A stretch of DNA of 64,000 nt from Echinicola pacifica DSM 19836 (GTDB lineage: Bacteria; Bacteroidota; Bacteroidia; Cytophagales; Cyclobacteriaceae): NCBI RefSeq assembly GCF_000373245.1, contig NZ_KB890758.1, positions 9,588-73,587 of the forward strand. Direction: 5' to 3'. Shown here piece by piece: positions 735 to 17,772 of the stretch; positions within the stretch are counted from its first letter, which is position 1; each line of letters starts with the position of its first letter. The position numbers and the translations under genes are program-made. Under the pieces are notes generated by a model. It was not told the origin of the DNA and ran no database searches. It worked only from the letters and a program-made list of their open reading frames with translations.

Positions 735-2186
735 TTATAAACCTACGCCAGTTCCCTGGACCGCGGTATCATGATCCCACATGATCACCCAGGGGTCTTT
801 GGTTTGTACCTGATAGTTTCTGAGTTTATCCTTTAGGCGATGGAGGGTGGAGCCATAGCCTTCCTGTCCTGCCAGGTTCCTGAGTTCCTGAGGATCAGTG
901 CTCAGGTCATACAGCTCAAATTCCGCACGCTGGATATAGGCCTCTCTGAGTCTGGGACCAAAATTCAATTGCTGCTCTCTTTCACTTTCCTGCCAGCTGG
1001 AAGACCACCATAGGTCTGAGGCAAAGGGATAAGGCAACTGGTAAGCGAGGTTCCAAATCAACTTCATATCCCCTTCGATCACCGCTCTCATGGGGTAGTA
1101 CATGGTGATCTCATGAAAAGTATGAGAGGCATAGATGTCTTTTTCATACACAGAGGAAGGCTGCTCTATCGCATTGCGAAAGGATCGGCCATGAAATTGC
1201 TCTGGGGAGAAAGGAATTTCTGCCAGGTCCAAAATGGTGGGCATCAGGTCCACCCAGGAGATCGGCGAATGGCTTAGGCTAGAAGGAGCGATTTGGGCGG
1301 GATATTTGATGATGCAGGGCAATTTTATTCCTGCTTGGTAAAGGGTGGTTTTTGCTCCGGGAAAGGCTATTCCATTGTCCGAGATATAAATGATGATGGT
1401 GTTTTCCGTCTTGCCAGCTTCATCCAGGTACTGCATCAGGCGTCCCAGACCTTGATCCAGTCGGGAGACACTTTGGTAATATTGCGCCAGCTCCTCCCTG
1501 ACGACCTGGGTATTAGGCAGAAAATCCGGTACCAAAACCTCCTCGGCCTTATACTTCACCTCTTGCACCCCGGGATAGGGATTGGGTTTATTACCAAAAT
1601 TATTGGGGTCAGACCATTTCTCAGGCTTGAAGGGGCTACCACGATGGGGATCGCCAGGGCAGAAATACAAGAAAAATGGCTCCTCTCCCTCTATCACCGC
1701 TTTGCTTTGATCGGCCATCTCCACGGTACTCCTCTCATCAGCATCCAATACCGTATCAAAAGCATACACCTGCTCAGGGGCAAGATGATATTTGCCCACC
1801 CGGGCAGTCTTATACCCATGCTGGCTTAAGGCCACAGGAAGGGAAAGTACCCCCTCATAAGTGCTGAAATGATGGTAATCATGCGTATGACCGTAAGATC
1901 CTGTAGCATGGCCATAGTGTCCTGTCAAGATCACCGACCTGCTGGCAGCACAGCTGGCGCTGGTACAGTAAGCATCCGTAAACCTCGTACCCTCCTTAGC
2001 CAATTGGTCAAGGTGAGGAGTGCGAATCACCGGATTGCCATAGGCTCCTAAGGCATCGGTGCCGTGGTCATCCGATACGATCAGGATAATATTGGGCTTG
2101 GAGGACAACTGCTGTGCCCTCCCCTGCGAACTCATAAATCCTGCCCACAAGGCCAGGAAAAGTGTTATTTGAGATAAATTATGCAT
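735..2186 (-). CDS. Secreted sulfatase, heparan N-sulfatase-like (S1_8 type)
   Basis: This 483-residue formylglycine-dependent sulfatase would hydrolyse a sulfate ester or sulfamate on a glycan. It has a signal peptide (about residues 1-25) ending in an AQ-type cleavage site. The metal-binding Asp pair is D39-D40. The maturation motif C79-A-A-S-R83 fits the C-x-P/A-x-R consensus, with Cys79 as the residue converted to formylglycine, and an SDNG metal-site motif follows later. Length and the SDNG-plus-KTTLY-type segment recall the N-sulfoglucosamine sulfohydrolase group; the exact subfamily is inferred. It is the last gene of the SusCD operon, 152 bases after the other sulfatase. No sulfatase-maturing enzyme is in the window, so activation depends on one elsewhere. 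Confidence 0.9.
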   Translation of the reverse strand: MHNLSQITLFLALWAGFMSSQGRAQQLSSKPNIILIVSDDHGTDALGAYGNPVIRTPHLDQLAKEGTRFTDAYCTSASCAASRSVILTGHYGHATGSYGHTHDYHHFSTYEGVLSLPVALSQHGYKTARVGKYHLAPEQVYAFDTVLDADERSTVEMADQSKAVIEGEEPFFLYFCPGDPHRGSPFKPEKWSDPNNFGNKPNPYPGVQEVKYKAEEVLVPDFLPNTQVVREELAQYYQSVSRLDQGLGRLMQYLDEAGKTENTIIIYISDNGIAFPGAKTTLYQAGIKLPCIIKYPAQIAPSSLSHSPISWVDLMPTILDLAEIPFSPEQFHGRSFRNAIEQPSSVYEKDIYASHTFHEITMYYPMRAVIEGDMKLIWNLAYQLPYPFASDLWWSSSWQESEREQQLNFGPRLREAYIQRAEFELYDLSTDPQELRNLAGQEGYGSTLHRLKDKLRNYQVQTKDPWVIMWDHDTAVQGTGVGL

Positions 2187-2338: not shown

Positions 2339-3850
2339 TTAAAATTCTAAGATGGAATTTGGTGGTAAGGGCACTTGATTTTCCTGCCGCCATTGCAGGA
2401 GGCTTTGCAGAAGTTCCTCCCGGATTTCGGTTTTTGTCTCTGCAATATTTTTTGTTTCCAGAGGATCCTGCTCCAAATCATATAATTCTATTTGGCCATC
2501 CTTGAGAAATTGTATCAATTTATACTTCCCGACCAATACGGCGGAGCAGGTCCCGTGCTTATTGATGCTTGCGAGATGCCAGAAGATTGGGCGTTCTTTC
2601 AGTTGCTCCACCTCTTCCTTAAAGATCGGCTTCAGGGAAATACCATCCTCGGAGGTTTTTGGGCCCAGGCCAGCCACATCCAGGAAAGTTGGGTAATAAT
2701 CTACCACCTGAATGGGGATTTCAGACCTTCGCGCCTGGATTTTGCCCGGCCAGTTGAAGAATGTTGGCACGCGCACTCCGCCTTCGTATATCTCTCCTTT
2801 GGCGCCTCGAAGGGCGTGGTTGCTGCTTTGACCACCGTTATAGCCATTGTCTGAGCTGAATACTATGAGGGTATTTTCTCTCAAACCCTCCTCGTCGAGG
2901 TACTGGAGGATACGACCGATATTCTCATCCAAGGAAGCGATCATCGTGGCATAGGCGGCCATAGTTTCCTTTCCCTTGCCCATTCCCTGCCCCGAAGCGG
3001 GGTCTCCCGATTTGTCCATAAAGTGCTTATATAGCGTCTCATTGCGGGATTTGATAGGTCTATGAACAGTGTAATAGTGTAAATTCACAAAAAACGGCCC
3101 CTCTTTATTCCGCTTCATATGGCTAATGGCCTCATTGGTAAGGCGGTCGGTTAGCCATTCATCATTGGGTTTTGGATCGATGAAGGGATTGCTGAATGGT
3201 GCTCGGTAGCCGCCATTTTCGCTGGAATACCCACCCTTCTCGAAAGCAGGATCCCCACGGAAGGTCCCCCCGACATTCTTCTCAAAACCTCTTCCCTCCG
3301 GATAATAGGCTCTGACCTCGGCAGACTTATGGTTTGCGACCCAGGAGAAATCCCCCGGATCGGGCTGGCTAAGCTTATGATCGATAGGCCATTCCATCGC
3401 CAATTCGGCCTGAGGATATGGCCCCACAATATGCCATTTCCCCAAATGAATGCTCTGATAACCCAATCCCTGCAATGCTTCAGAATAGATGGGATGCTCC
3501 CTGGAAAGGGTCCATCTGGAAAACACATTCTCCTCCGCATCGCCTTTTTCCAGCACTGGGACGGTATATACCCCCGTCCGGAAACTCTGTTTGCCCGTAA
3601 ACAGGGCCGTTCTGGAGGGAGAACAGGTCGGATACATATAGGATTTATCAAAAATTAGACTTTCACTGGCCAGCTGGTCTATATTTGGGGTTTCATAGTA
3701 TTGGGATCCGTTGAAACCCACATCGCCGTAGCCCAGATCATCTACCAGAATAAAAATGATATTCGGCTTCTGGGTCGGTTGACTATTAGCACATCCAAAC
3801 TGGAGGAGCACTATACCAAGCAATGAAAAAAGAGAGGATAATTTTATCAT
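2339..3850 (-). CDS. Sulfatase lipoprotein (arylsulfatase family, S1)
   Basis: A 503-residue type I sulfatase. The N-terminal signal ends in a lipobox with Cys20 (L-Q-F-G-C), predicting a membrane-anchored protein. Metal ligands D37-D38 are followed by the canonical C76-S-P-S-R80 maturation site, with Cys76 as formylglycine precursor; an SDNG motif lies in the second half. The C-terminal part has the usual sulfatase small-domain features (ELYDLEQDP). It resembles arylsulfatase A-like enzymes of marine Bacteroidota that remove O-sulfates; substrate position cannot be read from sequence. It follows the FMN_bind-like gene by 27 bases and differs enough from its neighbour sulfatase to suggest a different sulfate position. 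Confidence 0.92.
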   Translation of the reverse strand: MIKLSSLFSLLGIVLLQFGCANSQPTQKPNIIFILVDDLGYGDVGFNGSQYYETPNIDQLASESLIFDKSYMYPTCSPSRTALFTGKQSFRTGVYTVPVLEKGDAEENVFSRWTLSREHPIYSEALQGLGYQSIHLGKWHIVGPYPQAELAMEWPIDHKLSQPDPGDFSWVANHKSAEVRAYYPEGRGFEKNVGGTFRGDPAFEKGGYSSENGGYRAPFSNPFIDPKPNDEWLTDRLTNEAISHMKRNKEGPFFVNLHYYTVHRPIKSRNETLYKHFMDKSGDPASGQGMGKGKETMAAYATMIASLDENIGRILQYLDEEGLRENTLIVFSSDNGYNGGQSSNHALRGAKGEIYEGGVRVPTFFNWPGKIQARRSEIPIQVVDYYPTFLDVAGLGPKTSEDGISLKPIFKEEVEQLKERPIFWHLASINKHGTCSAVLVGKYKLIQFLKDGQIELYDLEQDPLETKNIAETKTEIREELLQSLLQWRQENQVPLPPNSILEF

Positions 3851-3877: not shown

Positions 3878-4996
3878 CTATAAATAATGGGAATTTTGAC
3901 GATAGAAATCATCCATCACTGATTGTTGGCTGGCTGATAATTTTTGGTTTTGCAAAAAGTAAAACAGCCGACGGGTGATCAGCAAATCTTTCTCTTTTAG
4001 GATTTCTTGCATCGCATCCACCTCAGTGGACATTAGTGGGCCATATCTCCCCAAGATATTAAGGACCTTGTCTGCCTCAGGTAAAGAGCTGATAGTCTCG
4101 AGATGATCAAATAATAGAGGTTTAAATTCCTCCTCCTGTTCATTCTTATCTATGGTTTCCAAACTTATCAGCCTCACCGCTTCTGCGGGATTGGTGAGCA
4201 GCGATTGGGATAGCTGCACCCGAAAATCTAGGGGCCACTTCGCTTGTGCAGTGCAGATGATTCTAGCCTCCTCCAAGGTCAATCGGGGCGCCTGAGCAAG
4301 CAGGGCCCACTCTGTATCCTCCTCCAGATCTTCCCGATACGCAAGTGATTCATAAGCAAACAATTTCATTTCCTCCTCCTTAGAGTCTAACATTTCTCTG
4401 AGCTGGCGCTGCTCCAGCGTAAGTGCATAAGCCTCTCTGATCTTGTTTTTCATCTCCCCATGCACCCAGTGCCAAAGCGTAAAGCAGGTCCAGGTGGCAC
4501 CTTCTATTGATTCCTGATCAGAAAGGATGAGAGCGGTGGCTCCAGACATGGCGTCCACCTCTCCATGCACTTTGGTCTGAGTGATGTCGGCGTAGGATAG
4601 CTCCCGCAAGGCCGATTCCTCATTGGCCAGGATCCGGTCCAGCTGCTCATAATCCTCCTTCTCAAAAGGTAATCCCTCGCCCTTCTCCAGCTCCACCCCT
4701 GGCTCCAATTCATAGCGCTTATACCGACCATAATTATCCCAAAACAATCGCACGGGGACCACCTTGCATATATGATCGGCACAAAGGACGGACTCCACCT
4801 CCAGGAAGAAATAGGAGGATGCGCCCCCTTCAAACACCTGCCTCAGGCTCATCTCCTCAGGGCCATCCTCCAGGGCAGGATGATCCACTGTCACGGCGAT
4901 CGTCTTGATATCAGGCCCAGCAGCATCGGTCCATTGCCCTGGTGCTGAGCCCCAGAATGAAATTATAACTAAAATGACGGATCTTATGAATAGCAT
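3878..4996 (-). CDS. Secreted FMN_bind-like protein with C-terminal helical region
   Basis: A 372-residue exported protein with an N-terminal hydrophobic signal (about 1-20). Residues about 45-165 look like a divergent FMN_bind domain. They contain a D148-A-M-S-G-A-T154 motif, which matches the D-x-x-S-G-A-T signature at which ApbE-type transferases attach FMN to the last threonine. The segment before it (PVRLFWDNYGRYKRYEL, then a long EDYEQLD helix) also fits. Residues about 190-372 are acidic and helical, HEAT-like. The gene overlaps the upstream FAD oxidoreductase by 13 bases, implying coupled translation and a functional pair, perhaps electron transfer. The domain call rests on the motif and context, not on a profile search; C72 and C77 could form a disulfide. 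Confidence 0.6.
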   Translation of the reverse strand: MLFIRSVILVIISFWGSAPGQWTDAAGPDIKTIAVTVDHPALEDGPEEMSLRQVFEGGASSYFFLEVESVLCADHICKVVPVRLFWDNYGRYKRYELEPGVELEKGEGLPFEKEDYEQLDRILANEESALRELSYADITQTKVHGEVDAMSGATALILSDQESIEGATWTCFTLWHWVHGEMKNKIREAYALTLEQRQLREMLDSKEEEMKLFAYESLAYREDLEEDTEWALLAQAPRLTLEEARIICTAQAKWPLDFRVQLSQSLLTNPAEAVRLISLETIDKNEQEEEFKPLLFDHLETISSLPEADKVLNILGRYGPLMSTEVDAMQEILKEKDLLITRRLFYFLQNQKLSASQQSVMDDFYRQNSHYL

Positions 4997-6909
4997 CTTA
5001 CCTCGTATATCTTGACTTGGTCAGCACCCCAGGTGTCCTTAAATTTTATGCGCAGGGCGCTGGTCTGCACGGGTGCAAAGGACAGCTTTATCATCCTCCT
5101 GCGGTTATCGCTAAGCTGTGCGATTTCCTTCCAGGCCCCAGCGACCCTAGCTTCCAGCACTAGTTCCCTTACCAATTCTGGTGGGACGGCAAGGATCTGT
5201 TCCTCATTTTTATCTGGGTTTTTATGCATCATTATTTTCCGCTGCAGGTTGGTATCCGCCTTGATCAGCACCTCACTTATTGGTTGAGCTTCGAGCCATT
5301 CCAATTGCAGCTGAGCCGGCTTGGACGAGGAGCTCCAGTGGTGTATCTGGTCGATCTCATCCCGAGATATTCCGTCCAGCAGTAGTTTGGCATCTCCGGT
5401 GGCGGTGCTATCGCCAAAGATCACCTGACATTGGCGAGCCAGGTCCTTAGGGTCACGCGAAGGGCGGTTGGGAATATAGACATCGTCTCGTAGCAGCTGC
5501 TCTTGTAGGAGGTCGATATTATTTTGCGCCAGCATCCTAGGGCTAAGCTGATGACTCAGACATAAGGCTGCTGCGGTGCCCACCGCCTGGCCCATCAGTG
5601 CGCAGGTGCCCTGGATCCGTGTGGAGCTCAGCGCAATATGCGTCACACTCACATTCCGCCCTGCAAACATTAGATTTTTGATGTTTTTGCTGTATAAACT
5701 CCTGAAAGGCACCTCATAGGGCTTATTAAAGCGATCATGAAAATAACTAGGTGGCTCGCTGAGGTTTTCTATTCCTCCGGGATTGTGCTCATCCAGAGAC
5801 CATCCACCATATCCGATGGCATCTTCGAAATGCTTATAAGTCTCCATGTCTTTTTGGGTAAGAATATAGTCACCCATAAATCGGCGCGACTCCCTTCTAC
5901 CGGGCAGGGATCCTACCCAGTCCAGCACCAGGTTATCGGCTTCAGGAAATTCCCCTGAATTCTTGATATAATTCCATACTCCATGCATATAGCCCATGAG
6001 CTTATGGCGATTGGTTTCCTGATCTGCGATGATGTCATCATCACTGCCCAGCTCCACCCACCAGTATCCTTCTTTGAACTGGTTGATTTTACGATCATGG
6101 GCTTTTTCTGCCTGATAAGGGATCATAAATGAGGGAGGATAATAAGGCATGGGTTTTTCCATATCCTTGGTGATCATCATCAGGGTGGCTCCCATCTGCC
6201 AGCCATCGGCCACTTCCGGAGCAAAGGACTCATCAAACTCTGATCTAGCCTCTCTGCCGGTGCGGTATTCGGCACCCGCAGTGGCGGCGAGCAAGCCATC
6301 CCCTGAGCAGTCGATGAAGTATTTGGCATTTATGGTAAAGGCCGTCTCGGTGGTCAGCTGCCAGCAGATGGCACTTTTGATCGTTCCCGAATCATGCATC
6401 ACCGCATCTATCGCCTGAGTATTGAGCATAATATCCAAATTGGACTGCTGGCTGACATAATCATAGACCACATGGTCCCATACAGGATAGCTTTCCTGGG
6501 GGTTGAAGTACCAATTGTCAATGAGCATCTCCTCGATGATCCCTGTTTCTCTTTCCACACGATGCTTGTTTTGCAGGGATTGCACACCATTTACGGTCAC
6601 CCGGATTTCGCTACTTGCATTTCCCCCCAGCACGGGCCGATCATTGATGAGGACCGTTTTGGCACCATTCCTTGCGGAGGCCACAGCAGCACTGATTCCT
6701 GCCATGCCAGCCCCGATTACGGCCACATCATATTGGACGGTCTTTTGTCTTTTGGGAATGCCTATTTTGCCCTTGCCCATCTGCTCCCAGTGGTCATTGC
6801 TTCGCTTTCCCAGGTTTACAGGATCATCATTTACACGGATGCTGAGTGGCAAAAGACCGGATAGCAATCCTGCCCCGGCAGTTTGCTTAAAAAACTTTCT
6901 TCTTTTCAT
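4984..6909 (-). CDS. Tat-exported FAD-dependent oxidoreductase (FAD_oxidored) with discoidin-like C-terminus
   Basis: A 641-residue flavoprotein. The N-terminus K-R-R-K-F-F-K plus a hydrophobic stretch is a twin-arginine signal, so it is exported folded with its cofactor. The dinucleotide-binding motif G66-A-G-M-A-G71 follows a V-A-V-I strand, with a LGGNASSEIR segment at about 94-103, typical of the FAD_oxidored family (PF12831). Members are frequent in polysaccharide loci and are sometimes annotated as xanthan lyase without biochemical support. Residues about 525-641 look like a beta-sandwich of the F5/8 type C kind and may bind carbohydrate. It lies 96 bases after the lipoprotein gene, past a hairpin, and overlaps the FMN_bind-like gene. 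Substrate is unknown; glycan or uronate oxidation is inferred. Confidence 0.82.
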   Translation of the reverse strand: MKRRKFFKQTAGAGLLSGLLPLSIRVNDDPVNLGKRSNDHWEQMGKGKIGIPKRQKTVQYDVAVIGAGMAGISAAVASARNGAKTVLINDRPVLGGNASSEIRVTVNGVQSLQNKHRVERETGIIEEMLIDNWYFNPQESYPVWDHVVYDYVSQQSNLDIMLNTQAIDAVMHDSGTIKSAICWQLTTETAFTINAKYFIDCSGDGLLAATAGAEYRTGREARSEFDESFAPEVADGWQMGATLMMITKDMEKPMPYYPPSFMIPYQAEKAHDRKINQFKEGYWWVELGSDDDIIADQETNRHKLMGYMHGVWNYIKNSGEFPEADNLVLDWVGSLPGRRESRRFMGDYILTQKDMETYKHFEDAIGYGGWSLDEHNPGGIENLSEPPSYFHDRFNKPYEVPFRSLYSKNIKNLMFAGRNVSVTHIALSSTRIQGTCALMGQAVGTAAALCLSHQLSPRMLAQNNIDLLQEQLLRDDVYIPNRPSRDPKDLARQCQVIFGDSTATGDAKLLLDGISRDEIDQIHHWSSSSKPAQLQLEWLEAQPISEVLIKADTNLQRKIMMHKNPDKNEEQILAVPPELVRELVLEARVAGAWKEIAQLSDNRRRMIKLSFAPVQTSALRIKFKDTWGADQVKIYEVRCYS

Positions 6910-7005: not shown

Positions 7006-7473
7006 TTACTTGGTGAAACTGGTAATTTCCAGCGTCCAGATTTTTTTGCTTCCATTGGCGGCGGTGATTTCATACTGGTAAGGACCGGCAGAAAAATCAG
7101 CGATTTCTCCCAATTTGGGACTTCCCTCGATCGGCCTGATCGTGGCTGCAGTTGATATATCTGCAAAACCCGCCAGACTGGTCAGGCTAACCTGATTTCT
7201 GATCGCTTCGGGAAAATCCTGATTTGCCGCAGGCACCGTCAATACGCAGGCCATGGTCCCGGCCTCCACATCAATGGATAGCTTCGTATCTATTCCTTCT
7301 ACATTCAGCTGAGGATAATTTCCCTCCGCATTGATCCATCGGTATTCAAACCTAAAATTATTGATATCCGCCTCCTCAAAAGAAGGGAGTTCCTCCAGGC
7401 CTGCTTCCAGACAAGAGGAGAAGGCCATAGATATGGCACAAAATAGGCTAATGTATATTATAAGATTTCTCAT
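7006..7473 (-). CDS. Small surface lipoprotein following SusD
   Basis: A 155-residue lipoprotein: signal peptide ending in F-S-S-C with Cys21 as the lipidated residue. The rest is a single beta-rich module with an IDTKLSIDVEAGT-like strand and a closing WTLEITSF strand. This is the style of the DUF5018/Ig-like modules that follow SusD in Bacteroidota operons. It sits 12 bases after susD and occupies the slot usually filled by a surface glycan-binding protein, though it is much smaller than typical ones. A binding role is inferred from position only. Confidence 0.75.
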   Translation of the reverse strand: MRNLIIYISLFCAISMAFSSCLEAGLEELPSFEEADINNFRFEYRWINAEGNYPQLNVEGIDTKLSIDVEAGTMACVLTVPAANQDFPEAIRNQVSLTSLAGFADISTAATIRPIEGSPKLGEIADFSAGPYQYEITAANGSKKIWTLEITSFTK

Positions 7474-7485
7474 GTCTATAGTGGT

Positions 7486-9282
7486 TTACCATCCAGGGTT
7501 TTGATCCAAATTTTGATTTAGCACTCTCTCATTTTCTGGCACAGGAAATAAATACCTTCTAGGAGAAAAGCGTTTTTTGTGATTGGCGGCGTTGAGGAAT
7601 ACATTTTTGATTTCGAAGGCTTTGCCATCTTCAGAGATTTCAAAGAACTTATATTGCTTATCATTCAATTCAGGGATCACATTTCCTCCTTCTTCCAGTC
7701 CCCAACGGAGCAGGGACCAGTAGCGGTCATTCTCGAAGAAGAGCTCCACCCTTCTTTCGATTTTATAATACTCCCAGGCTTCTTCCAGAGAGATCCCGGC
7801 AGATAAGGCTGGCAGGCCACCATGCTCCACACGTGTTTTATTTATATATTCCACCGCGGTGGCAATGTCATTTAGTCTGAGCATCACCTCTGCATAATTC
7901 AGGTAAGACCTCCCCAGCCTGGCAAGGGCCTGAGCGTAAGAAGAATGCAGGTCAGCCTTAAAGCCGGGAATATCATAGATGAATTTCTTCATAAAATACC
8001 CTGAAGGGGTGGACCTGTTGGTTCCTTTGGTACTTTCGGTATAGTAGAGATTCCCCCCTACCCTGGTGGTGACTAGATTGGAAAACAGGTACGTGGAATC
8101 ATAGAGGATGGATGCCTCAAAGCGATCGTCTCGTGCTTCATTATAGATTGCCTCAGAAAGGTACCCTCCATTGGACTGAAAGTCCTGGAAATAGGAAGTT
8201 TCATCCCATCGCTTGGCTGTACCGTCCACATCTGCCACGAGGTAATCGGCAATGAGGTCATGGGTGGGCCATATTTCTGTCCATCCCAAAAAGGACTCCT
8301 TCAGGCCGGGATTCCCGGTGGTGGCAGACACCTCCATATTAGGCACCAAACCCTGCATCAGGGTCTGCTGACACCAGGTAGCATTGATATTCTTAAACTG
8401 GCCAAGGATAATTTCCTCCGAGGCAAAAGCATGGTCAAAATCATTGAATAAGGCATCATAATCAGCGTCCAGGGCATAGCCAAGACCGAAGAGATCTTCA
8501 CTGGCCTGCTTAGCGATCTGGTAATATTCCTGCTGGCCTGTCTCTATATAGGCGGCTCCATGTAAGGCCACCTCAGCGAGCATCGCATAGGCAGCACCTT
8601 GCGTCAGCTGTCCTTTCTCGGCCGCTCCTGCTGATGGCAGGTCCACCGCCGCTTCCTGCAGGTCATTGACGATAAAATCATAAGTATCCTTGATCGTCGC
8701 AGACCTGGGTAGCTCCAGATCATCCTCTGGTGTCAGCACCTTATCCACAATGATATATTTACCAAATATCCTCGCTTTGGAGAAATACATCAATGCGCGC
8801 AGCATCTTACCCTGGGCTATTAGGCCCGGCTTGAGGTTTGCAGGGATCCCTTCGGAAGCCTGCACCTGCTCGATGATCAGATTACAATCTCTGATGACCT
8901 CAAAGGAATTTTGCTTCACGGGCGCCTTGTTTCCCAGTGGGGCCTTGCCGAAGAAATAATAAGAATTATTGGTGGACCATCCCGCATCAAAATACTTATC
9001 GATGAGGTCCTTGGCGATATTATTGGACTGACGAGTCAGTACATTATCGGTAAAGTCATCATTGCCAATTCCTCCAAACCGAGACTGGGGGTCGCCAGGG
9101 TTGACCATCAATTCAGGTATCACCGAGGCATAGGTATTATAAATGAAACCTTGAGCAAGGTTGACATCATTCCACACATCGAGCTCCGTGTATTTGTCCA
9201 GAGGCTTGGTATCCAACAAATCGTCATTGCAGCTGCTAAAGCAGATGGCCGACAAAAACAGTACTATTATATATCTAGTCAT
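7486..9282 (-). CDS. susD: SusD/RagB-family nutrient-binding lipoprotein
   Basis: A 598-residue outer-membrane lipoprotein. The N-terminus carries a lipobox F-S-S-C with Cys18, followed by the NDDLLDTKPLDKYTE region typical of SusD proteins. Helical TPR-like segments lie in the N-terminal half, and the C-terminus has the family ending (RYLFPVPENE ... NQNLDQNPGW), which is nearly diagnostic. SusD caps the SusC barrel and delivers glycan to it. It lies 17 bases downstream of susC, in the same operon as two sulfatases, so the ligand is probably a sulfated oligosaccharide. Confidence 0.96.
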   Translation of the reverse strand: MTRYIIVLFLSAICFSSCNDDLLDTKPLDKYTELDVWNDVNLAQGFIYNTYASVIPELMVNPGDPQSRFGGIGNDDFTDNVLTRQSNNIAKDLIDKYFDAGWSTNNSYYFFGKAPLGNKAPVKQNSFEVIRDCNLIIEQVQASEGIPANLKPGLIAQGKMLRALMYFSKARIFGKYIIVDKVLTPEDDLELPRSATIKDTYDFIVNDLQEAAVDLPSAGAAEKGQLTQGAAYAMLAEVALHGAAYIETGQQEYYQIAKQASEDLFGLGYALDADYDALFNDFDHAFASEEIILGQFKNINATWCQQTLMQGLVPNMEVSATTGNPGLKESFLGWTEIWPTHDLIADYLVADVDGTAKRWDETSYFQDFQSNGGYLSEAIYNEARDDRFEASILYDSTYLFSNLVTTRVGGNLYYTESTKGTNRSTPSGYFMKKFIYDIPGFKADLHSSYAQALARLGRSYLNYAEVMLRLNDIATAVEYINKTRVEHGGLPALSAGISLEEAWEYYKIERRVELFFENDRYWSLLRWGLEEGGNVIPELNDKQYKFFEISEDGKAFEIKNVFLNAANHKKRFSPRRYLFPVPENERVLNQNLDQNPGW

Positions 9283-9299
9283 TTTGATCTATTTATTTA

Positions 9300-12200
9300 T
9301 TAAAACCCTACATTAAGACCTACCGCGAAGGTTCTCTGCACCGGATAGCCATAAGTCTGCACGCCACTTCCCGTCTCTGCCTGCTCTGGATCGAAGTAAT
9401 CCATTACTGGAGAAATGGTGAATAAATTGGTGCCATTGACGAATATCCGGCAGTTGGAAACCCAGTCCACCCCGTCTAGCAAAGAATGCTTAAGGTCATA
9501 GCCAACCTGAAGATTTCTCAATCGGAAATACTTGGCATTCTTCAGGTAGTAGTCTGAGGGATAGGTAGCATTACTATTATTTCCCCCGTTGATCTGCTCG
9601 ATATGGGAGACTCTGGGAAATAAGGAATTGGGATTATCCTCTGTCCAATAGTCCTGTTGGAACTGGTAAGTCCGGCGTTTGGCTTCCACAATCATAAAAT
9701 TATCAAAGGCCAGGTAGCGGTCGCCAGTGCCTTGGAAGAGGCCGTTCATAGACCATCCCTTATACTTCAAGGAGAAGTTTAGCCCATAGGTGCCATGAGG
9801 TAAGGAAGGCAGGCCTACGGTGCGCTTGTCCTGCTCATCGATTTTCCCATCACCATTGGCGTCAGTATATTTGATATCTCCCTGCTGGGTGGCGGTGGAA
9901 CTGAGCAGGCGTGGATTATTTAGGATTTCCTCCTCGGTCTGATAGAGCCCTTCCGTCACTAATACCGCTCCTCCACCCCAGTAATCTGTACGGTGTGTTT
10001 CTCTGATATAGGGATTCATGAGGGTCGCTTCATTCTCGGTATCCAACTGCTCCCAGAGCTGATTGAAATAGGAGTAATTACCACCAATCTCATATTTCAG
10101 CGCTCCCAGCTGTCCACGGTAATTCATCGACAGCTCAAACCCTGCTCTTCGTTGTGCGGAGTTTGACTTGATCTGCGGCAGATCTTTTCCCAATGGCAGG
10201 GCATAGATATCTTTTGGGCTTACCAGAAATCCTGTGGTGCGGTAATAAAAATATTCAAAGGTACCGGTCAATTTTCCTCCCAGGGAGGAGAAGTCCACAC
10301 CATAATTCAGGGACCTTCTGGTGTACCAGGTGAGTTCCAGCGGATTTACCAAATCTCCTTCAGAATAGCCATTTACCAGGTTTCCTCCGATGTTATAGGC
10401 ATTGGGTTCAAGGTTATAGACCGGGATATAGCCAAATCTATTGACGCCCTGGGTGATTCCTGTTTCCCCATAAGACACTCGCAGTTTGAGGTCATTCACA
10501 ATATTTCTATTGCTAAGGTTTTTCATAAAGGGCTCATCGGTCACATTCCAAGCGGCGGATAAGGCGGGGAAAAAGCCCCATCTTTGTTCAGGCGCAAAAT
10601 TATCATTGCCATCATACCGGCCACTAAACTCCAGGATATACTTATAGTTGAAGTCATATTTTACACGCATCACATAGCCGGCATTGGCCCCTTCGGCTTC
10701 TGTACCGTTATTATCCTTGCCATCGGCAGGACCGGCAAAGAGCTGATCCACCGCGCCAGAAAGGTAGCCCCTTCTGAAAGCAGACATATCCTCCATGCGA
10801 TTGGTATTGAGGTTATAGACGAAAGTGGCATCCACCCCATGCAGCCCAAAGGTACGCTGATAATTGGCGCTGGTCTCGAAATACACCCGTTGGTTATAGT
10901 AAGAAGCCACGGTGAGCTGCGGAGGAGGCTGATTCATGACCGAGCCATCCTGCATATATAGTGGCACATTCTTTTCCCAAAGTTTACCCCATCCATCGCC
11001 ATTACGATAATTGGCCATGGCACCAAACTTCAGGCCTTCCACCTGGGGCACGGCCCAATTCAGCGAAAGCTGGGTATTGATAAACTTATCTCTGTTTTTA
11101 TTATACCCCGCATCAGGGCTGGTGAGCGCCAGAGGATGATCTCCATTCCCTCCACCGGCAAGGGTGCCGTCTTCATTATAGGCACGGTACATTGGGTTGG
11201 TATTTTGATTTACCGCTCGCCAGATGCTGTACATTCCTGCGGAAGGTTCCTGGTAATTCTCAAAACTAGCATTGATATTCATCCCTACTTCAAGACCTAT
11301 CTCCTCAAACTTAGAGACCACATTCGACCTGATATTGAGACGGTTATAGTTGACCACATCTTCTTTCAGGATCCCCCCCTGGTCGGCATATCCCAGCGAT
11401 ACGAAGTAGTTGGTACGCTTGCTGCCGCCATTAAGCGATAGATTATGTCGCTGCTCAGGAGCAAAATTCTTAAGCGTCAGATCGGGCCAGTTATTATCCG
11501 GATAAGTATCGAGGTCGCCATGGTTGCGGATGATTTCCAGCTGCTCACTGGTGTACGTCGCGGGCGTTCCATCATAGGCGTTGGCTTGATTTTGTATTAA
11601 GGCATACTCGTAAGAATTCAACATTCCCGGTAATACGGTAGGCTGACTCATCTGATAATTATAGGAATAATTGACATTTATTTTACCTTCCTGACCCCTT
11701 CTAGTGGTGACCAGGACGATGCCATTACCCGCCTTGGATCCATATACCGCGGTGGCGGCTGCATCCTTCAGGAAGCTGATGGTTTCTATATCATTGGAGT
11801 TTAGGGTATTGAAATCCTGCTCGGTGGTGATGACCCCATCGATCACATATAAGGGACTTCCTGCCCCCCTAATGGATATATTGGGGCTGCTTCCCGGGCC
11901 TCCACCGTTATTCTGCACCACCAACCCCGGCACCTGGCCCTGGAGGGAGGAACCTACATTATAGAAGGGCGTTTCTTCCAATTTTTCTTTTCCCAGACTG
12001 GACACCGCACCCACCATTTTGGCCTTGGTGGTGGTGCCATAGCCGATCACGACCACCTCATCCAGCCCGATATCCTCGGCTTGCATGATCACATCGATCA
12101 CCGATGCATTGGCCACACGGCTGATTGGCTGCATGCCGAGATAGCTAAACATCAGGGTGTCTCCCTGCTCCGCAGCAATGGTATATTTACCATCAATATC

Positions 12201-12395
12201 AGACACCGTCCCCGTGGAAGTCCCCTTCCTCAATACGCTCACTCCAGGAATCAACTCCTCCGTGGTCCCATCTTTGATGGTCCCGGAAATCTGCATCTGC
12301 TGCGCCATGGCCGGAAGGATATAGCTATATCCCAGAACGAAGCACAGTAGCAATCCCCGCAATGGGGTCCTTACTTTAGTAATTATTTGTTTCAT
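9300..12395 (-). CDS. susC: SusC/RagA-family TonB-dependent transporter
   Basis: A 1031-residue outer-membrane transporter. A signal peptide (about 1-32) precedes a carboxypeptidase-D-regulatory-like domain (about 35-105). A TonB-box-like L-D-E-V-V-V-I-G-Y-G follows at 111-120, then a plug domain with a GAGSPLYVIDG segment, then the 22-strand barrel ending in FAVGLNVGF. Length and architecture are typical of SusC. There is no N-terminal STN extension, so it is not expected to signal to an anti-sigma factor. It is the first gene of the seven-gene minus-strand operon, and no dedicated regulator lies next to it. Confidence 0.96.
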   Translation of the reverse strand: MKQIITKVRTPLRGLLLCFVLGYSYILPAMAQQMQISGTIKDGTTEELIPGVSVLRKGTSTGTVSDIDGKYTIAAEQGDTLMFSYLGMQPISRVANASVIDVIMQAEDIGLDEVVVIGYGTTTKAKMVGAVSSLGKEKLEETPFYNVGSSLQGQVPGLVVQNNGGGPGSSPNISIRGAGSPLYVIDGVITTEQDFNTLNSNDIETISFLKDAAATAVYGSKAGNGIVLVTTRRGQEGKINVNYSYNYQMSQPTVLPGMLNSYEYALIQNQANAYDGTPATYTSEQLEIIRNHGDLDTYPDNNWPDLTLKNFAPEQRHNLSLNGGSKRTNYFVSLGYADQGGILKEDVVNYNRLNIRSNVVSKFEEIGLEVGMNINASFENYQEPSAGMYSIWRAVNQNTNPMYRAYNEDGTLAGGGNGDHPLALTSPDAGYNKNRDKFINTQLSLNWAVPQVEGLKFGAMANYRNGDGWGKLWEKNVPLYMQDGSVMNQPPPQLTVASYYNQRVYFETSANYQRTFGLHGVDATFVYNLNTNRMEDMSAFRRGYLSGAVDQLFAGPADGKDNNGTEAEGANAGYVMRVKYDFNYKYILEFSGRYDGNDNFAPEQRWGFFPALSAAWNVTDEPFMKNLSNRNIVNDLKLRVSYGETGITQGVNRFGYIPVYNLEPNAYNIGGNLVNGYSEGDLVNPLELTWYTRRSLNYGVDFSSLGGKLTGTFEYFYYRTTGFLVSPKDIYALPLGKDLPQIKSNSAQRRAGFELSMNYRGQLGALKYEIGGNYSYFNQLWEQLDTENEATLMNPYIRETHRTDYWGGGAVLVTEGLYQTEEEILNNPRLLSSTATQQGDIKYTDANGDGKIDEQDKRTVGLPSLPHGTYGLNFSLKYKGWSMNGLFQGTGDRYLAFDNFMIVEAKRRTYQFQQDYWTEDNPNSLFPRVSHIEQINGGNNSNATYPSDYYLKNAKYFRLRNLQVGYDLKHSLLDGVDWVSNCRIFVNGTNLFTISPVMDYFDPEQAETGSGVQTYGYPVQRTFAVGLNVGF

Positions 12396-13149: not shown

Positions 13150-14616
13150 TCAGTATCCTGGATTTTGATCGGTATCGTCCATGGCTTGGTTATAGTTCAA
13201 TTCATCCTGAGGGATGGGCCACAGGTAATGCTTTTCGGCAATGGTGATTCCTTTATTTTTTCCTATAAATTCCTGAGCTCTTCCCGTCCTCTTGAGGTCT
13301 AGCCACCTTTTTCCCTCAAACTGTAGCTCATAGGCTTTCTGCTGAAGGATCAAATCGTAAAACTCGTCAAGCCCCAACAGGCTTCCAACGATATCTCTGT
13401 CAGAAGCGATGGTAGGGTCAAGGCCATAAGCTCTGCGCAGCACCTGATTATACGCTTCTGCGGCCTCGGGAGAAATGGCCATAGTGGCTCTCGCTTCCGC
13501 CTCTGCAAAGATCAGCAGCACTTCAGCATATCGATAAATGGGCAGATCATTTCCGGCTCCGGTATTATCCACGGCGTTGGGTTCCACATATTTGCCATTC
13601 ACCAGCGTGGTACTTCCGAGACCAAAATCCACCTGTTGCCATAGCTGCTTCCGCAGATCTCCCTCTTCCCACTCACCGTAGAATGGGTTGGCTGCGTCTC
13701 CATAATGAGCATAAGCTCCGCCAAAATTATATAATCCCGTGCTTGGATGATTCATGATCCATGGCAGTCCATTTCCTTGTCCAGTCTGTCGGGTAAACTT
13801 AAAGGAGAAGACCTCCTCCGGGCTACTTACCAAATCTGGCCCAAACAGCTTCCACTGCAGGTCCTCCACGCTGGTGATTTTCACTAGTGAAAACTGAGTG
13901 GAATTCATTATTTCCTGTGCCTTTGTGGCTGCCAAAGCGTAATTTTCCAGTTCTAGATAGACATCTGCCAATAGGGCCTTGGCGGCCCAGACGCTGGGTT
14001 TTCCAGCAATCGCCGCAGTTTCAGGCAGCTGCTGCTCGGCAAGCTCAAGGTCTGCAAGGATCTGCTCATAGACCTGCTCCTCTGTGGCTCGGCTGACATT
14101 TACCTCTTCCATATTTTCAGTGATTCTCAGGGGCACTCCTCCCCAGTTTCTCACCAAGTCAAAATAGGTCAAGGCTCTCAGGAAATATGCCTCCCCCATT
14201 AGTTCTTGTACCTTTACCTCAGAATCCAGCCCATTGGCGACGCTATAGAAGAGCACCAAATTGGCATTTCTGATCCCCTCATAAAACTGTCTCCATCGCT
14301 GTGCGGCGGCATTGGCATTGGTGGCATTGAGCCCATTGAAGTCATTGTACTGGGCACGGCTGCCACGTCCATATCCCCAGTCCGTGTGCGCACTTAGCAC
14401 TGCCACCTGCTCCGACCTTACCGATCGTAGCGGACTATAGATAGCATTGGTGGCGGTCTCTATCTCATCCACCGTCTGGTAATAGTTTTCTGCGACCACC
14501 GTCTTTGGCTGCTCCTCCAGCCTATCGTCACAGCTGGTAAATAATACTCCGGAAGTGAGGGCAGCGAGCGCTAAGAGCCCGGCGCTCTTTATATAGTGTT
14601 GATTGAATTTTTTCAT
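13150..14616 (-). CDS. susD: SusD/RagB-family lipoprotein (second pair)
   Basis: A 488-residue SusD homologue, shorter than the first. The signal peptide ends in F-T-S-C with Cys29 lipidated, followed by DDRLEEQPKT. The family hallmarks are present: an ALTYFDLVRNWGGVPL helix in the first third and a C-terminus with KHYLWPIPQDE and DQNPGY. It lies 24 bases after its susC partner and is the last gene before the terminator, so the operon encodes only the transporter complex. The ligand cannot be inferred; enzymes feeding this pair must lie elsewhere, or the pair handles products of the neighbouring exopolysaccharide genes. Confidence 0.96.
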   Translation of the reverse strand: MKKFNQHYIKSAGLLALAALTSGVLFTSCDDRLEEQPKTVVAENYYQTVDEIETATNAIYSPLRSVRSEQVAVLSAHTDWGYGRGSRAQYNDFNGLNATNANAAAQRWRQFYEGIRNANLVLFYSVANGLDSEVKVQELMGEAYFLRALTYFDLVRNWGGVPLRITENMEEVNVSRATEEQVYEQILADLELAEQQLPETAAIAGKPSVWAAKALLADVYLELENYALAATKAQEIMNSTQFSLVKITSVEDLQWKLFGPDLVSSPEEVFSFKFTRQTGQGNGLPWIMNHPSTGLYNFGGAYAHYGDAANPFYGEWEEGDLRKQLWQQVDFGLGSTTLVNGKYVEPNAVDNTGAGNDLPIYRYAEVLLIFAEAEARATMAISPEAAEAYNQVLRRAYGLDPTIASDRDIVGSLLGLDEFYDLILQQKAYELQFEGKRWLDLKRTGRAQEFIGKNKGITIAEKHYLWPIPQDELNYNQAMDDTDQNPGY

Positions 14617-14640
14617 GATTATCAGTTCTTTAGGTGAGTA

Positions 14641-17600
14641 TCAAAAAGTGGCTCTAATGCCCACAGTATAGGATTTTGGGATGGGGTAAGTATAGTGGTC
14701 TATCCCCATGCTGGTATCGCCTCCTTTACTATTGACCTCTGGATCCCACCAGCTATAGTTGGTGAAGGTCAGTAGGTTTTGACCACTTATATACAGCTTG
14801 AGATTGCTGATCCAAGTGGACTGTGGAAACATAAAGTCATAGGCCAGCTGGATATTTTTCAACCTAACATATGATCCATCCTCCACAAACCTGTCCGAAA
14901 CTCTCACATCTGTATTTCTACTGATCTGCGGGTATTTTGCATTGGTATTCTGCGGAGTCCAGTGATTGTCCAGCACCTCCACGGGCATATTGAGCCCCTG
15001 ACCGTAATCCATGGTACTGGTGATCGAACTCACATTGAAAATATCATTCCCCTTAGAACCTTGAAAAAACACGTCCAAAGTGAAGTTTTTATAGCTCATA
15101 TTTGAGTTGATGCCGAAGTAATAGTCAGGATTGGGATCTCCAATGGCCATCTTATCCGCTTCGGAGATTTGCCCATCATTATTTACATCCACATACTGGA
15201 TATTGCCCTCATCTGTATATCCATCTTCCTTATATCCCCAAAACTGCCCAATAGGCCGACCCTCCTCGAGGATGGAGAAATTATCCGCCACGGTGACCAC
15301 ATTGATATAATTGGTCAAAATGGACTCATCTCCATACAGAGAAACCACCTCATTGCGGTTGAAGGATATATTCCCCTTCATGGTCCAATAAAAGTCCTTA
15401 TTGAGAATAATCGCATCCAAGCTATATTCCATCCCTTTGTTCTGAACTTCTCCCACATTGGCGATGGTGCTGGTATATCCATAGGAACTCGGCAGCCTCA
15501 CGGTGCTCAGAAGATCCTTGGTGTTCTTGATATAAAAGTCAGCCCCAAGCATGATCCTCCCCTGCAAGAGACCGATGTCCAGTCCTACATCATACTGCTC
15601 TGTGGTTTCCCATTTTAGGTCGCCAGGTAATAGGGAGCTGGGGGCAAAAGTGCTGAAAAGCTCATCCCCAAATACGGTATAGCCGGGGAATAGTCGGTTT
15701 AAGGTACTATAAGGATCGATGGCTTGGCTTCCTGTTAGGCCCCAACTGGTACGAATCTTTAGCTCGGAGATCGCGGATTGGTTCTGCATAAACCCTTCCT
15801 GCGAAACCCTCCAGGCTAGGGCAGCAGAGGGGAAATGTCCCCATTTATTGCCTTCACTGTAGCGGGAAGAGCCATCAGCCCTATAGGTAGCGGTAAAAAA
15901 GTACTTATCAGCAAAATTATAATTTGCCCTGCCCAGATAAGATATCAAGGCCGACTTCGCATAGCCTGAGCTGGGTATGCCGGGGGTATTGGCGGCACCT
16001 AAATTATCCGTTTCAAATAAATCAGAGGAAAAACCCGTCCCGCCACCAGCCAGGAAGCGAGTCGTAAAATCCTGATAGGTCATCCCCGCCAGGACTTCAA
16101 ATTTATGCTTCTCATTTACCGTGTCACTATAGGTAATCGTATTTTCATTGAGTAATGAGGTATATTGACGGGTGTTGACCGTGGCCTGCCCATTACTATT
16201 CAGAAAACGGGTGGTATAGTAATTATCTGTTCGGTCATCTCTATTCTCCACCCCACCAGATATTTTAATGCTTAATTTCGAAATTGGCTTATACTCCACT
16301 GCGGCATTGGCTAGGACGATATTAGCATTGACCTCATTATATTGCTCCTGGATATAGTTTAGCGGATTTATAATATCAGGAGATACGAAGGGGAAATCCT
16401 GAGAAAGAATACTGAGAGAACCGTCACTTTGGTAAGGGCTAGAAAGCGGTGAAGCTACCAATGCCGCGCCTATCATCGAATTTCCTCTGGCACCCCCATC
16501 ACTATCCCGCCGATTGGTGGTTAATTTCGTCATATTGGTGTTAAAGTCCACACTTATCTTATCGCTGAGGGCATGGTGAATGGAAGACTGGAAGGCATAT
16601 CGCTTATAATCACTTCCCTCGATGATCCCCTGCTGATCAAACATGCTACCACCTAATGAAAACCGGGTCGTTTCGTTACCTCCTGATACCCGAACTGAGT
16701 TGGAGAGTATGGGAGCCTTTCTGAATACCTGATCCTGCCAGTCTGTTCCCGCGCCAAATCCTGCAATATCGGCATCGCTGAAGTAAGGCGCCAGGCCATC
16801 ATTTTCGGCTTGGAGGTTCATCATTTGGGCATATTGCCGGCCATTCATTAGTGGAAGTTTTTTCCGTAATTCCTGGCTGCTATAATAGCTCTCGATCTCC
16901 ACGGTGGTGGGAGACGGTACGCCGCCCTTGGTGGTAATCAGCACCACTCCATTGGCTCCCCGCGAACCGTATATAGCCGTGGCAGAGGCGTCTTTTAGCA
17001 CCTCGATGCTGGCAATATCCGCATTATTGAGGTTGGTAGGACTTCCAGAATAGGGGAATCCATCTATCACATAGAGTGGATCATTATTCCCCTGAATGGA
17101 ATTACTCCCCCTAATCCTCACCGAAATACCTCCGCCAGGAGCGCCATCACCCTGGACCACCTGCACCCCCGAAGCCCTTCCAGAAAGCGCCTGAGCGATA
17201 TTTGTGGTGGGATAGGCATTTAGCTCCTCGGTGCTTACCTGGGCTATGGAGCCAGTCAGGTCCGCCTTCCGAGCAGAGCCATAACCAATCACCACTATCT
17301 CCTCCAGCTCCTCTTCTGAGCTGGCCATGGTGATCTCGACAGAACTCTTGTTTCCCAGAGGAACCTCTTTTTCATCAAAACCAATAAAAGATACGGTCAA
17401 TATTGGCTTGGCCATTCCCTCAGGAATACTCAGGGTGAACTTGCCATTTTCATCGGTAATGGTTCCCTGGTCTTGTCCCTTCAGCTTAATGGTGGCCCCG
17501 GGAAGGCTAGCTCCTTCCTGATCTAGCACCGTCCCTGTCACCGTCTTATCGGCTTTTTCGGCCTGCTCCATCACTGGAGCAGCGAGCTTGGGCTTGGGAA

Positions 17601-17772
17601 GACTGTCCGCAGGGATGGTATCCTGTCTGGTGCGAGCGCTTTCTTCTAAAAGCTGCTGATGGCTGATCTTGCCCGTTCCAAAAATCGGGGCTAATGGACT
17701 TGCTTCTGCTTCCACGGTATGAACCAAAAAGAGTAAGCTGCCAAATAATAGTGGTTTGGTTAATGTTTTCAT
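14641..17772 (-). CDS. susC: SusC/RagA-family TonB-dependent transporter (second pair)
   Basis: A 1043-residue SusC homologue. Signal peptide about 1-24; then an unusual linker of about 50 residues rich in Ala, Pro and charged residues. A carboxypeptidase-D-regulatory-like domain (about 77-150) and a TonB-box-like E-E-I-V-V-I-G-Y-G (157-165) follow. The plug contains RIRGSNSIQGNNDPLYVIDG-type sequence, and the barrel ends in YTVGIRATF. It has the classical SusC layout and, with the downstream susD, forms a two-gene operon. The leader upstream (17773-17940) is AT-rich and holds no gene. Confidence 0.96.
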   Translation of the reverse strand: MKTLTKPLLFGSLLFLVHTVEAEASPLAPIFGTGKISHQQLLEESARTRQDTIPADSLPKPKLAAPVMEQAEKADKTVTGTVLDQEGASLPGATIKLKGQDQGTITDENGKFTLSIPEGMAKPILTVSFIGFDEKEVPLGNKSSVEITMASSEEELEEIVVIGYGSARKADLTGSIAQVSTEELNAYPTTNIAQALSGRASGVQVVQGDGAPGGGISVRIRGSNSIQGNNDPLYVIDGFPYSGSPTNLNNADIASIEVLKDASATAIYGSRGANGVVLITTKGGVPSPTTVEIESYYSSQELRKKLPLMNGRQYAQMMNLQAENDGLAPYFSDADIAGFGAGTDWQDQVFRKAPILSNSVRVSGGNETTRFSLGGSMFDQQGIIEGSDYKRYAFQSSIHHALSDKISVDFNTNMTKLTTNRRDSDGGARGNSMIGAALVASPLSSPYQSDGSLSILSQDFPFVSPDIINPLNYIQEQYNEVNANIVLANAAVEYKPISKLSIKISGGVENRDDRTDNYYTTRFLNSNGQATVNTRQYTSLLNENTITYSDTVNEKHKFEVLAGMTYQDFTTRFLAGGGTGFSSDLFETDNLGAANTPGIPSSGYAKSALISYLGRANYNFADKYFFTATYRADGSSRYSEGNKWGHFPSAALAWRVSQEGFMQNQSAISELKIRTSWGLTGSQAIDPYSTLNRLFPGYTVFGDELFSTFAPSSLLPGDLKWETTEQYDVGLDIGLLQGRIMLGADFYIKNTKDLLSTVRLPSSYGYTSTIANVGEVQNKGMEYSLDAIILNKDFYWTMKGNISFNRNEVVSLYGDESILTNYINVVTVADNFSILEEGRPIGQFWGYKEDGYTDEGNIQYVDVNNDGQISEADKMAIGDPNPDYYFGINSNMSYKNFTLDVFFQGSKGNDIFNVSSITSTMDYGQGLNMPVEVLDNHWTPQNTNAKYPQISRNTDVRVSDRFVEDGSYVRLKNIQLAYDFMFPQSTWISNLKLYISGQNLLTFTNYSWWDPEVNSKGGDTSMGIDHYTYPIPKSYTVGIRATF

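Follow-up and report, generated by a model that had tools for sequence, protein, structure and literature searches.

A near-obligate gene pair of a predicted exported FAD_oxidored enzyme and a putative ApbE-flavinylated partner in a polysaccharide-utilization operon of Echinicola pacifica

A 64,000-nucleotide stretch of the Echinicola pacifica DSM 19836 genome (here called the window; positions 9,588 to 73,587 of contig NZ_KB890758.1) carries a polysaccharide-utilization locus (PUL) that includes two overlapping genes, both on the reverse strand, as are all features of the window described here. The first (4984..6909) encodes a flavin adenine dinucleotide (FAD)-dependent oxidoreductase of 641 amino acids that belongs to the FAD_oxidored family (PF12831, 296.3 bits against a cut-off of 27), the match extending over residues 61-472 and over the full model (positions 1-416 of 416). 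Its N-terminus, MKRRKFFKQ (6832..6909), has a pair of arginines and by eye resembles a twin-arginine translocation (Tat) signal, and residues 66-71 form the dinucleotide-binding motif GAGMAG (6697..6714). The second gene (3878..4996) encodes a secreted partner of 372 amino acids with a Sec-like N-terminus, again by eye. According to an AlphaFold2 model it consists of a putative domain of about residues 29-180 that could be a substrate of the flavin transferase ApbE, followed by HEAT-like helices (181-367). The candidate flavinylation motif is D148-A-M-S-G-A-T154 (4535..4555, with the T154 codon at 4535-4537), and a pair of cysteines, C72-x4-C77 (4766..4783), lies in a predicted beta-hairpin and could form a disulfide. 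The start of the partner gene falls within the final codons of the FAD gene, giving a 13-base overlap (4984..4996). A sequence-only reading had named the Tat-like signal, a GxGxxG-type motif, DAMSGAT and the overlap as the marks of a coupled flavin pair, and all of these are confirmed. The nearest relative, from another genome (L005), has an overlap of identical size; its FAD gene is split into two overlapping frames (L005:3-845 and 602-1510), broken or mis-assembled, and its partner frame is open.

Across genomes, the pairing of the two genes is near-obligate and beyond local chance, and the earlier expectation that they would usually be adjacent holds. The FAD genes were counted with a profile built from the window enzyme and its matches, and Pfam confirmed the copies that were checked. 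In 80 fetched regions with 81 members of the partner family (part of all members found), 77 members have a FAD_oxidored gene as their direct same-strand neighbor. In L096 an ApbE gene sits between partner and FAD gene, and in L115 the FAD_oxidored gene lies three genes upstream of the partner. In a second set, of 80 loci, called genes gave 79 members spread over 77 loci, and 78 of these members adjoin FAD_oxidored. When all open frames of this set are considered, there are 83 members in 80 of 80 loci. Each of them has a FAD_oxidored frame on its own strand, at a distance of up to 300 bases for 80 members and of 355-977 bases for the other three. In 1.5-kb flanks, a FAD_oxidored frame is likewise present for 53 of 54 loci, of which three are duplicates; the exception, L054, is the gene of L096. 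Because only four genes of the host genome match PF12831 over the whole model (13 match it at all), we estimate for this genome that the probability of chance adjacency is well under 1% per gene.

The companion enzymes are diverse (125 to 625 bits), and by eye their N-termini are mostly Tat-like or Sec-like, with a strict Tat pattern in 26 of 156. For the window enzyme, the Tat-like N-terminus and a TatC encoded in the host genome (213.8 bits) together predict export. Among 59 genomes there are 27 FAD genes resembling that of the window (28 rows, one gene being split), and the partner is adjacent in 14 of them. All 13 partner-less genes of these genomes encode proteins of 760-814 amino acids. 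The partner-adjacent genes encode one protein of 802 amino acids (G035), and the other unsplit ones span 593-672. The N-termini that were examined of the long, ~760-amino-acid type (L062 and 19 of 33 distinct non-adjacent FAD genes) have no signal peptide by eye. Given that the partner-less genes are chiefly of this type, the partner appears to accompany mostly exported FAD enzymes, which fits the need for an electron acceptor outside the cytoplasm. A second FAD_oxidored of ~760 amino acids, without an evident signal peptide, is frequent in the same operons (L078, L102, L104, L244, L247 and others), which suggests a cytosolic twin of the exported step.

Relatives of the partner occur in 12 of the 59 genomes, the host included, as well as in 52 of 390 genomes of a sample of the order and 8 of 395 of a sample of the phylum, with the host in both. 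Weak matches confined to the C-terminal repeats (E above 1e-7) were dropped from the two samples as HEAT-repeat matches, which removed 15 and 4 genomes, respectively, that had no other match. The family is found in at least 80 loci of a further search, in Runella, Larkinella, Spirosoma, Rudanella, Dyadobacter, Chitinophaga, Parapedobacter, Cyclobacterium, Lunatimonas and others; these genome and locus sets overlap in part. In an alignment of 160 members, of which 144 are distinct and one is the window protein, the motif threonine is present in 160 of 160 rows and the aspartate in 158, the others having asparagine, so the motif is conserved as the sequence-only reading required. Both cysteines of C-x4-C are likewise present in 160 of 160 rows with constant spacing, and one tryptophan is also invariant. 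Given that members share just 16-53% identity with the window partner (50-row alignment), the motif is under strong selection. The window protein lacks the Asp-His found at positions 107-108 in most members (D in 61 of 81, H in 66 of 81). PMC12052999 gives the ApbE consensus as D-x-x-[S/T]-G-A-[S/T], which fits exactly the window partner and 92 of the 144 distinct members.

The best indirect evidence for flavinylation is a private transferase inherited with the pair. In the two sets of called genes, 19 of 81 and 46 of 79 members have an ApbE gene no more than two genes away, as counted with our own profile (Pfam confirmed the two copies tested, at 264 and 261 bits). When all open frames are considered, 49 of 83 members have one on their own strand at a distance of up to 4 kb. 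A frequent gene order is SusC-SusD-partner-FAD-ApbE. In a tree of 24 of the 64 operon copies found, together with 21 other, hand-picked ApbE sequences, 23 of the 24 operon copies group in one clade (support 100/99), these coming from Spirosomaceae and Chitinophaga. In other genomes, therefore, the pair appears to be accompanied by a transferase of its own. ApbE was also found in all 60 of the partner-carrying genomes searched, and its presence in the host genome, which the sequence-only reading had proposed to check, is confirmed. As a discriminator, the presence of ApbE in a genome was set aside as weak, since 54 of the 59 relatives carry it.

We also considered that the partner could serve the FAD enzyme structurally, as a chaperone or as a subunit for docking, with a threonine motif that is vestigial or that binds flavin mononucleotide (FMN) non-covalently. 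The HEAT-like C-terminal helices do suggest a docking role, and the host's own ApbE lies outside the operon. Nevertheless, a vestigial motif is hard to reconcile with a T154 invariant in 160 of 160 rows, with the nearby ApbE of 49 of 83 members, and with the single clade that holds most of the sampled operon copies, and we regard this explanation as very improbable. A flavinylated electron carrier, for which the indirect evidence is strong, is the reading we retain.

What kind of domain carries the motif is less clear-cut. The FMN_bind proteins NqrC and RnfG (PF04205) are flavinylated by ApbE, and the sequence-only reading had labeled the partner FMN_bind-like. This label is not supported, as the similarity is limited to the motif by Pfam, NCBIfam, a PDB profile search, hhalign (local, low-threshold and global) and Foldseek. 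The window partner has no Pfam or NCBIfam match, and no Pfam family, PF04205 included, is reached even at E<=10. Its AlphaFold2 model (predicted local distance difference test, pLDDT, 88 at full length and 87 for the core) runs from a beta sheet through helices to a low-confidence loop that holds the motif, then through more helices to the HEAT-like tail; the strands of the C72-x4-C77 hairpin are 59-73 and 76-86. Because Foldseek matches to the full-length model were swamped by HEAT/ARM repeats, a core-only model was made, and no FMN-binding domain is among the 50 listed of its 182 Foldseek matches. The signature ETPGLG is also absent from the window partner; in 30 FMN_bind rows its E, T, G, L and G never vary and its P hardly does. 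Judged by the refuting points that the sequence-only reading had set, the FMN_bind label fails as far as the listed structural matches go, the motif and the adjacency hold, and the earlier interpretation is partly supported.

It is a serious possibility, though somewhat short of an even one, that the partner is nevertheless a very diverged PF04205 domain with a HEAT tail, in which case the pair would represent an FMN_bind carrier in a new context. PF04205 is the top sub-threshold Pfam family, matching 13 of 71 members at E<=1 (best E 0.0079) as compared with four for the next family, OrtA. When 10 members were scanned singly, four matched it at 13.0-14.4 bits, below the curated cut-off of 22 bits. 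Against the 30 FMN_bind sequences, hhalign aligned 15 columns around the motif with an E of 3.5e-5, and forcing longer alignments to FMN_bind yielded nothing credible. In the PDB profile search, the FMN domain 8p2b was matched with an E of 0.066 over 43 residues, ranking after a designed binder (0.05). All of this likeness is confined to the motif or lies beside it, and the missing ETPGLG and the Foldseek result tell against such an origin. According to PMC12052999, ApbE requires only seven residues, and therefore a shared motif is no proof of homology. The partner domain is new among ApbE substrates, or else it is an FMN_bind domain diverged beyond recognition; in both cases HEAT-like helices follow it. 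It appears to form a class of its own among ApbE substrates, and we call it a candidate substrate with an unassigned fold.

The invariant cysteines raise a further possibility, that C72-x4-C77 is a redox-active disulfide through which electrons from the FMN pass to thiols (TlpA-like carriers) and not to quinone. In L097-L099 a thioredoxin/TlpA-like protein (the L097 copy by Pfam) is encoded directly downstream of the partner gene, which, like the presence of the two cysteines in every aligned row, is consistent with such a route. This neighbor occurs in only 3 of 80 regions, however, and an invariant disulfide can be purely structural, so a thiol pathway that takes the place of quinone seems improbable.

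The setting of the pair at the window locus is that of a PUL, with SusC, SusD and sulfatase genes. Downstream of the partner gene lie two sulfatases (both PF00884). The best PDB matches of the nearer (2339..3850) are 6ust, a GalNAc-6-sulfate sulfatase, and 9fo1, a kappa-carrageenan S1_16 sulfatase; that of the farther (735..2186) is 4mhx, N-sulphoglucosamine sulphohydrolase. On the other side of the pair are a DUF5018-related protein with a lipoprotein-like N-terminus by eye (7006..7473; PF22243, 124.4 bits), a SusD-like glycan-binding protein (7486..9282; PF07980) and a SusC-like TonB-dependent transporter (9300..12395; PF07715, PF13715). A second SusD/SusC pair farther upstream (13150..17772, with genes at 13150-14616 and 14641-17772; PF14322, PF07715) is a candidate member of the operon. 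Beyond the left end of the window, the same strand (L074) encodes a GH2 enzyme, identified by Pfam, and frames that cluster with the sulfatases.

The sequence-only reading had placed the pair in a sulfatase SusCD operon. The PUL context stands, and the sulfatase does not stand as a hallmark of the family: in the two sets, 25 of 81 and 13 of 79 members have a sulfatase no farther than five genes away, and 50 of 81 and 72 of 79 have a SusD in this range. Sulfatases mark the window operon and not the family, SusCD being the commoner context, and the further claim that the operon couples desulfation to oxidation proves too specific. We tried to deduce the substrate from the relatives of the sulfatases, which are mixed (S1_16-like and N-sulphoglucosamine-sulphohydrolase-like) and not decisive. 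In L086 a 3-keto-disaccharide hydrolase (PF06439; L086:9646-10434) is encoded directly downstream of the pair. An oxidation at C3 was considered and not adopted, as a one-sequence search of 160 loci found this hydrolase in L086 only.

From these observations we suggest, with a probability of roughly 0.7, that the two genes encode the periplasmic redox couple of a polysaccharide-utilization operon, with a partner that is flavinylated by ApbE. Several findings weigh against it. The only ApbE of the host (289 bits) is encoded on a different contig from the window, and the only PF04205 protein of this genome is NqrC, a known kind of ApbE client. The occurrence of ApbE in 54 of 59 relatives discriminates poorly, and the operon copy of ApbE in L096 lies apart from the clade, on a long branch of unsure placement. 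Many motifs depart from the consensus, with alanine at position 4 in 39 of 144 distinct members and other differences in 13. An operon ApbE accompanies 31 of the 39 alanine variants, 19 of the 92 canonical members and 3 of the 13 others, an association that is confounded by ancestry and is not proof. No FAD_oxidored lies in the fetched stretch of L105 (near a contig end) or of L140. Among the non-adjacent FAD genes, the other 14 of the 33 include exported-looking ones, and an exported-looking FAD_oxidored of the host genome itself (L061) has no partner alongside. To these can be added the lack of an FMN-binding domain among the listed Foldseek matches and the fact that, among the larger neighbor clusters, which were the ones named, no conserved membrane electron acceptor was seen beside the pair.

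If the two proteins do form a redox couple, glycan fragments would enter via SusCD and, at the window locus, would be acted on by the sulfatases. The Tat-exported FAD enzyme may then oxidize a hydroxyl of a glycan-derived alcohol. ApbE would tag the partner with FMN on Thr154, a covalent attachment predicted from the motif and the linkage to ApbE. Electrons would pass from the FAD enzyme to this FMN, as the pairing of the genes suggests, and on to the respiratory chain. Given that no conserved membrane acceptor is seen nearby, the carrier may be diffusible, or the C-x4-C pair may hand electrons to thiol carriers. Only the PUL context leads us to infer a sugar as the substrate and oxidation as the reaction.

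The converse direction, in which electrons run from the FMN protein to a FAD reductase and on to an acceptor, glycan-derived or otherwise, in the manner of FMN-linked fumarate-reductase-like systems, appears unlikely. It sits poorly with a PUL setting with SusCD and with hosts that we take to be largely aerobic; moreover, PF12831 is not the fumarate-reductase family, and PF00890 matches the window enzyme over residues 61-98 only. Its attraction lies in the distant PDB matches of this enzyme, which are led by flavocytochrome c fumarate reductases over only ~40 residues, and in the fumarate-reductase-like enzymes with FMN-binding domains that appear among described flavinylated systems in PMC8238504.

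It is interesting to compare the proposed couple with known systems. Like NqrC and RnfG, the partner is extracytoplasmic, has a D-x-x-[S/T]-G-A-T motif and is linked to ApbE; unlike them, it lacks Pfam-level similarity, ETPGLG and a recognized fold match, and it has an invariant C-x4-C, a HEAT-like tail, a PF12831 companion and a PUL context. Glycoside 3-dehydrogenases, which pair a periplasmic FAD enzyme of the GMC type with a cytochrome, are similar in that a flavoenzyme oxidizes sugars outside the cytoplasm, and differ in having the GMC fold rather than PF12831 and a cytochrome as partner. ApbE-modified domains other than FMN_bind, namely DUF2271, DUF3570, Flavodoxin_4 and the FMN-reductase type, are described in Meheust 2021 and Huang 2024, where, as here, they were found through genomic context and models; the partner domain differs from each of them. 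A periplasmic alcohol oxidase of the exaA type in which a flavinylated protein replaces the cytochrome is also proposed in Meheust 2021. It shares with our pair the extracytosolic oxidation of an alcohol with transfer to a flavinylated carrier, and differs in its enzyme family, in its carrier and in lacking a glycan operon. The words polysaccharide and sulfatase are absent from the main texts of these two papers, and among the open-access papers listed we found no description of flavinylation in PULs, subscription papers being mostly outside the search.

PULs are usually described in terms of hydrolases, lyases, sulfatases and transporters. The distribution of the pair suggests that in many glycan operons of Bacteroidota the extracytoplasmic breakdown of sugars is connected to electron transfer. 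If such operons repeatedly combine an exported dehydrogenase with a flavin carrier of its own, oxidation and energy conservation ahead of uptake would join the functions of PULs. The pair would also give the ApbE paralogues of Bacteroidota a testable client and offer a way into the function of PF12831, on which there is little open-access literature under the family name or accession. More tentatively, and with doubt outweighing belief, the partner could represent an undescribed ApbE-flavinylated class with its own fold and with C-x4-C as a second redox site, serving as the general acceptor for exported FAD_oxidored dehydrogenases in glycan operons of Bacteroidota, often with a private ApbE. 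If so, PULs would respire on sugar ahead of its import.

Other features of these regions may be of interest. A second partner/FAD pair lies on the window's contig, outside the window (L075), following SusCD-like genes and apparent anti-sigma and sigma factor genes. A family of ~850 amino acids (for example, L152:12440-14959) occurs in 18 of 80 regions, and in many of them it follows closely downstream of ApbE. At E 1e-5 neither Pfam nor NCBIfam matches its representative, and the family may be an unrecognized carbohydrate-active enzyme. Another neighbor family (L082:4083-6737), whose representative has no Pfam match at E 1e-5, has members of 460-885 amino acids and is present in 8 regions.

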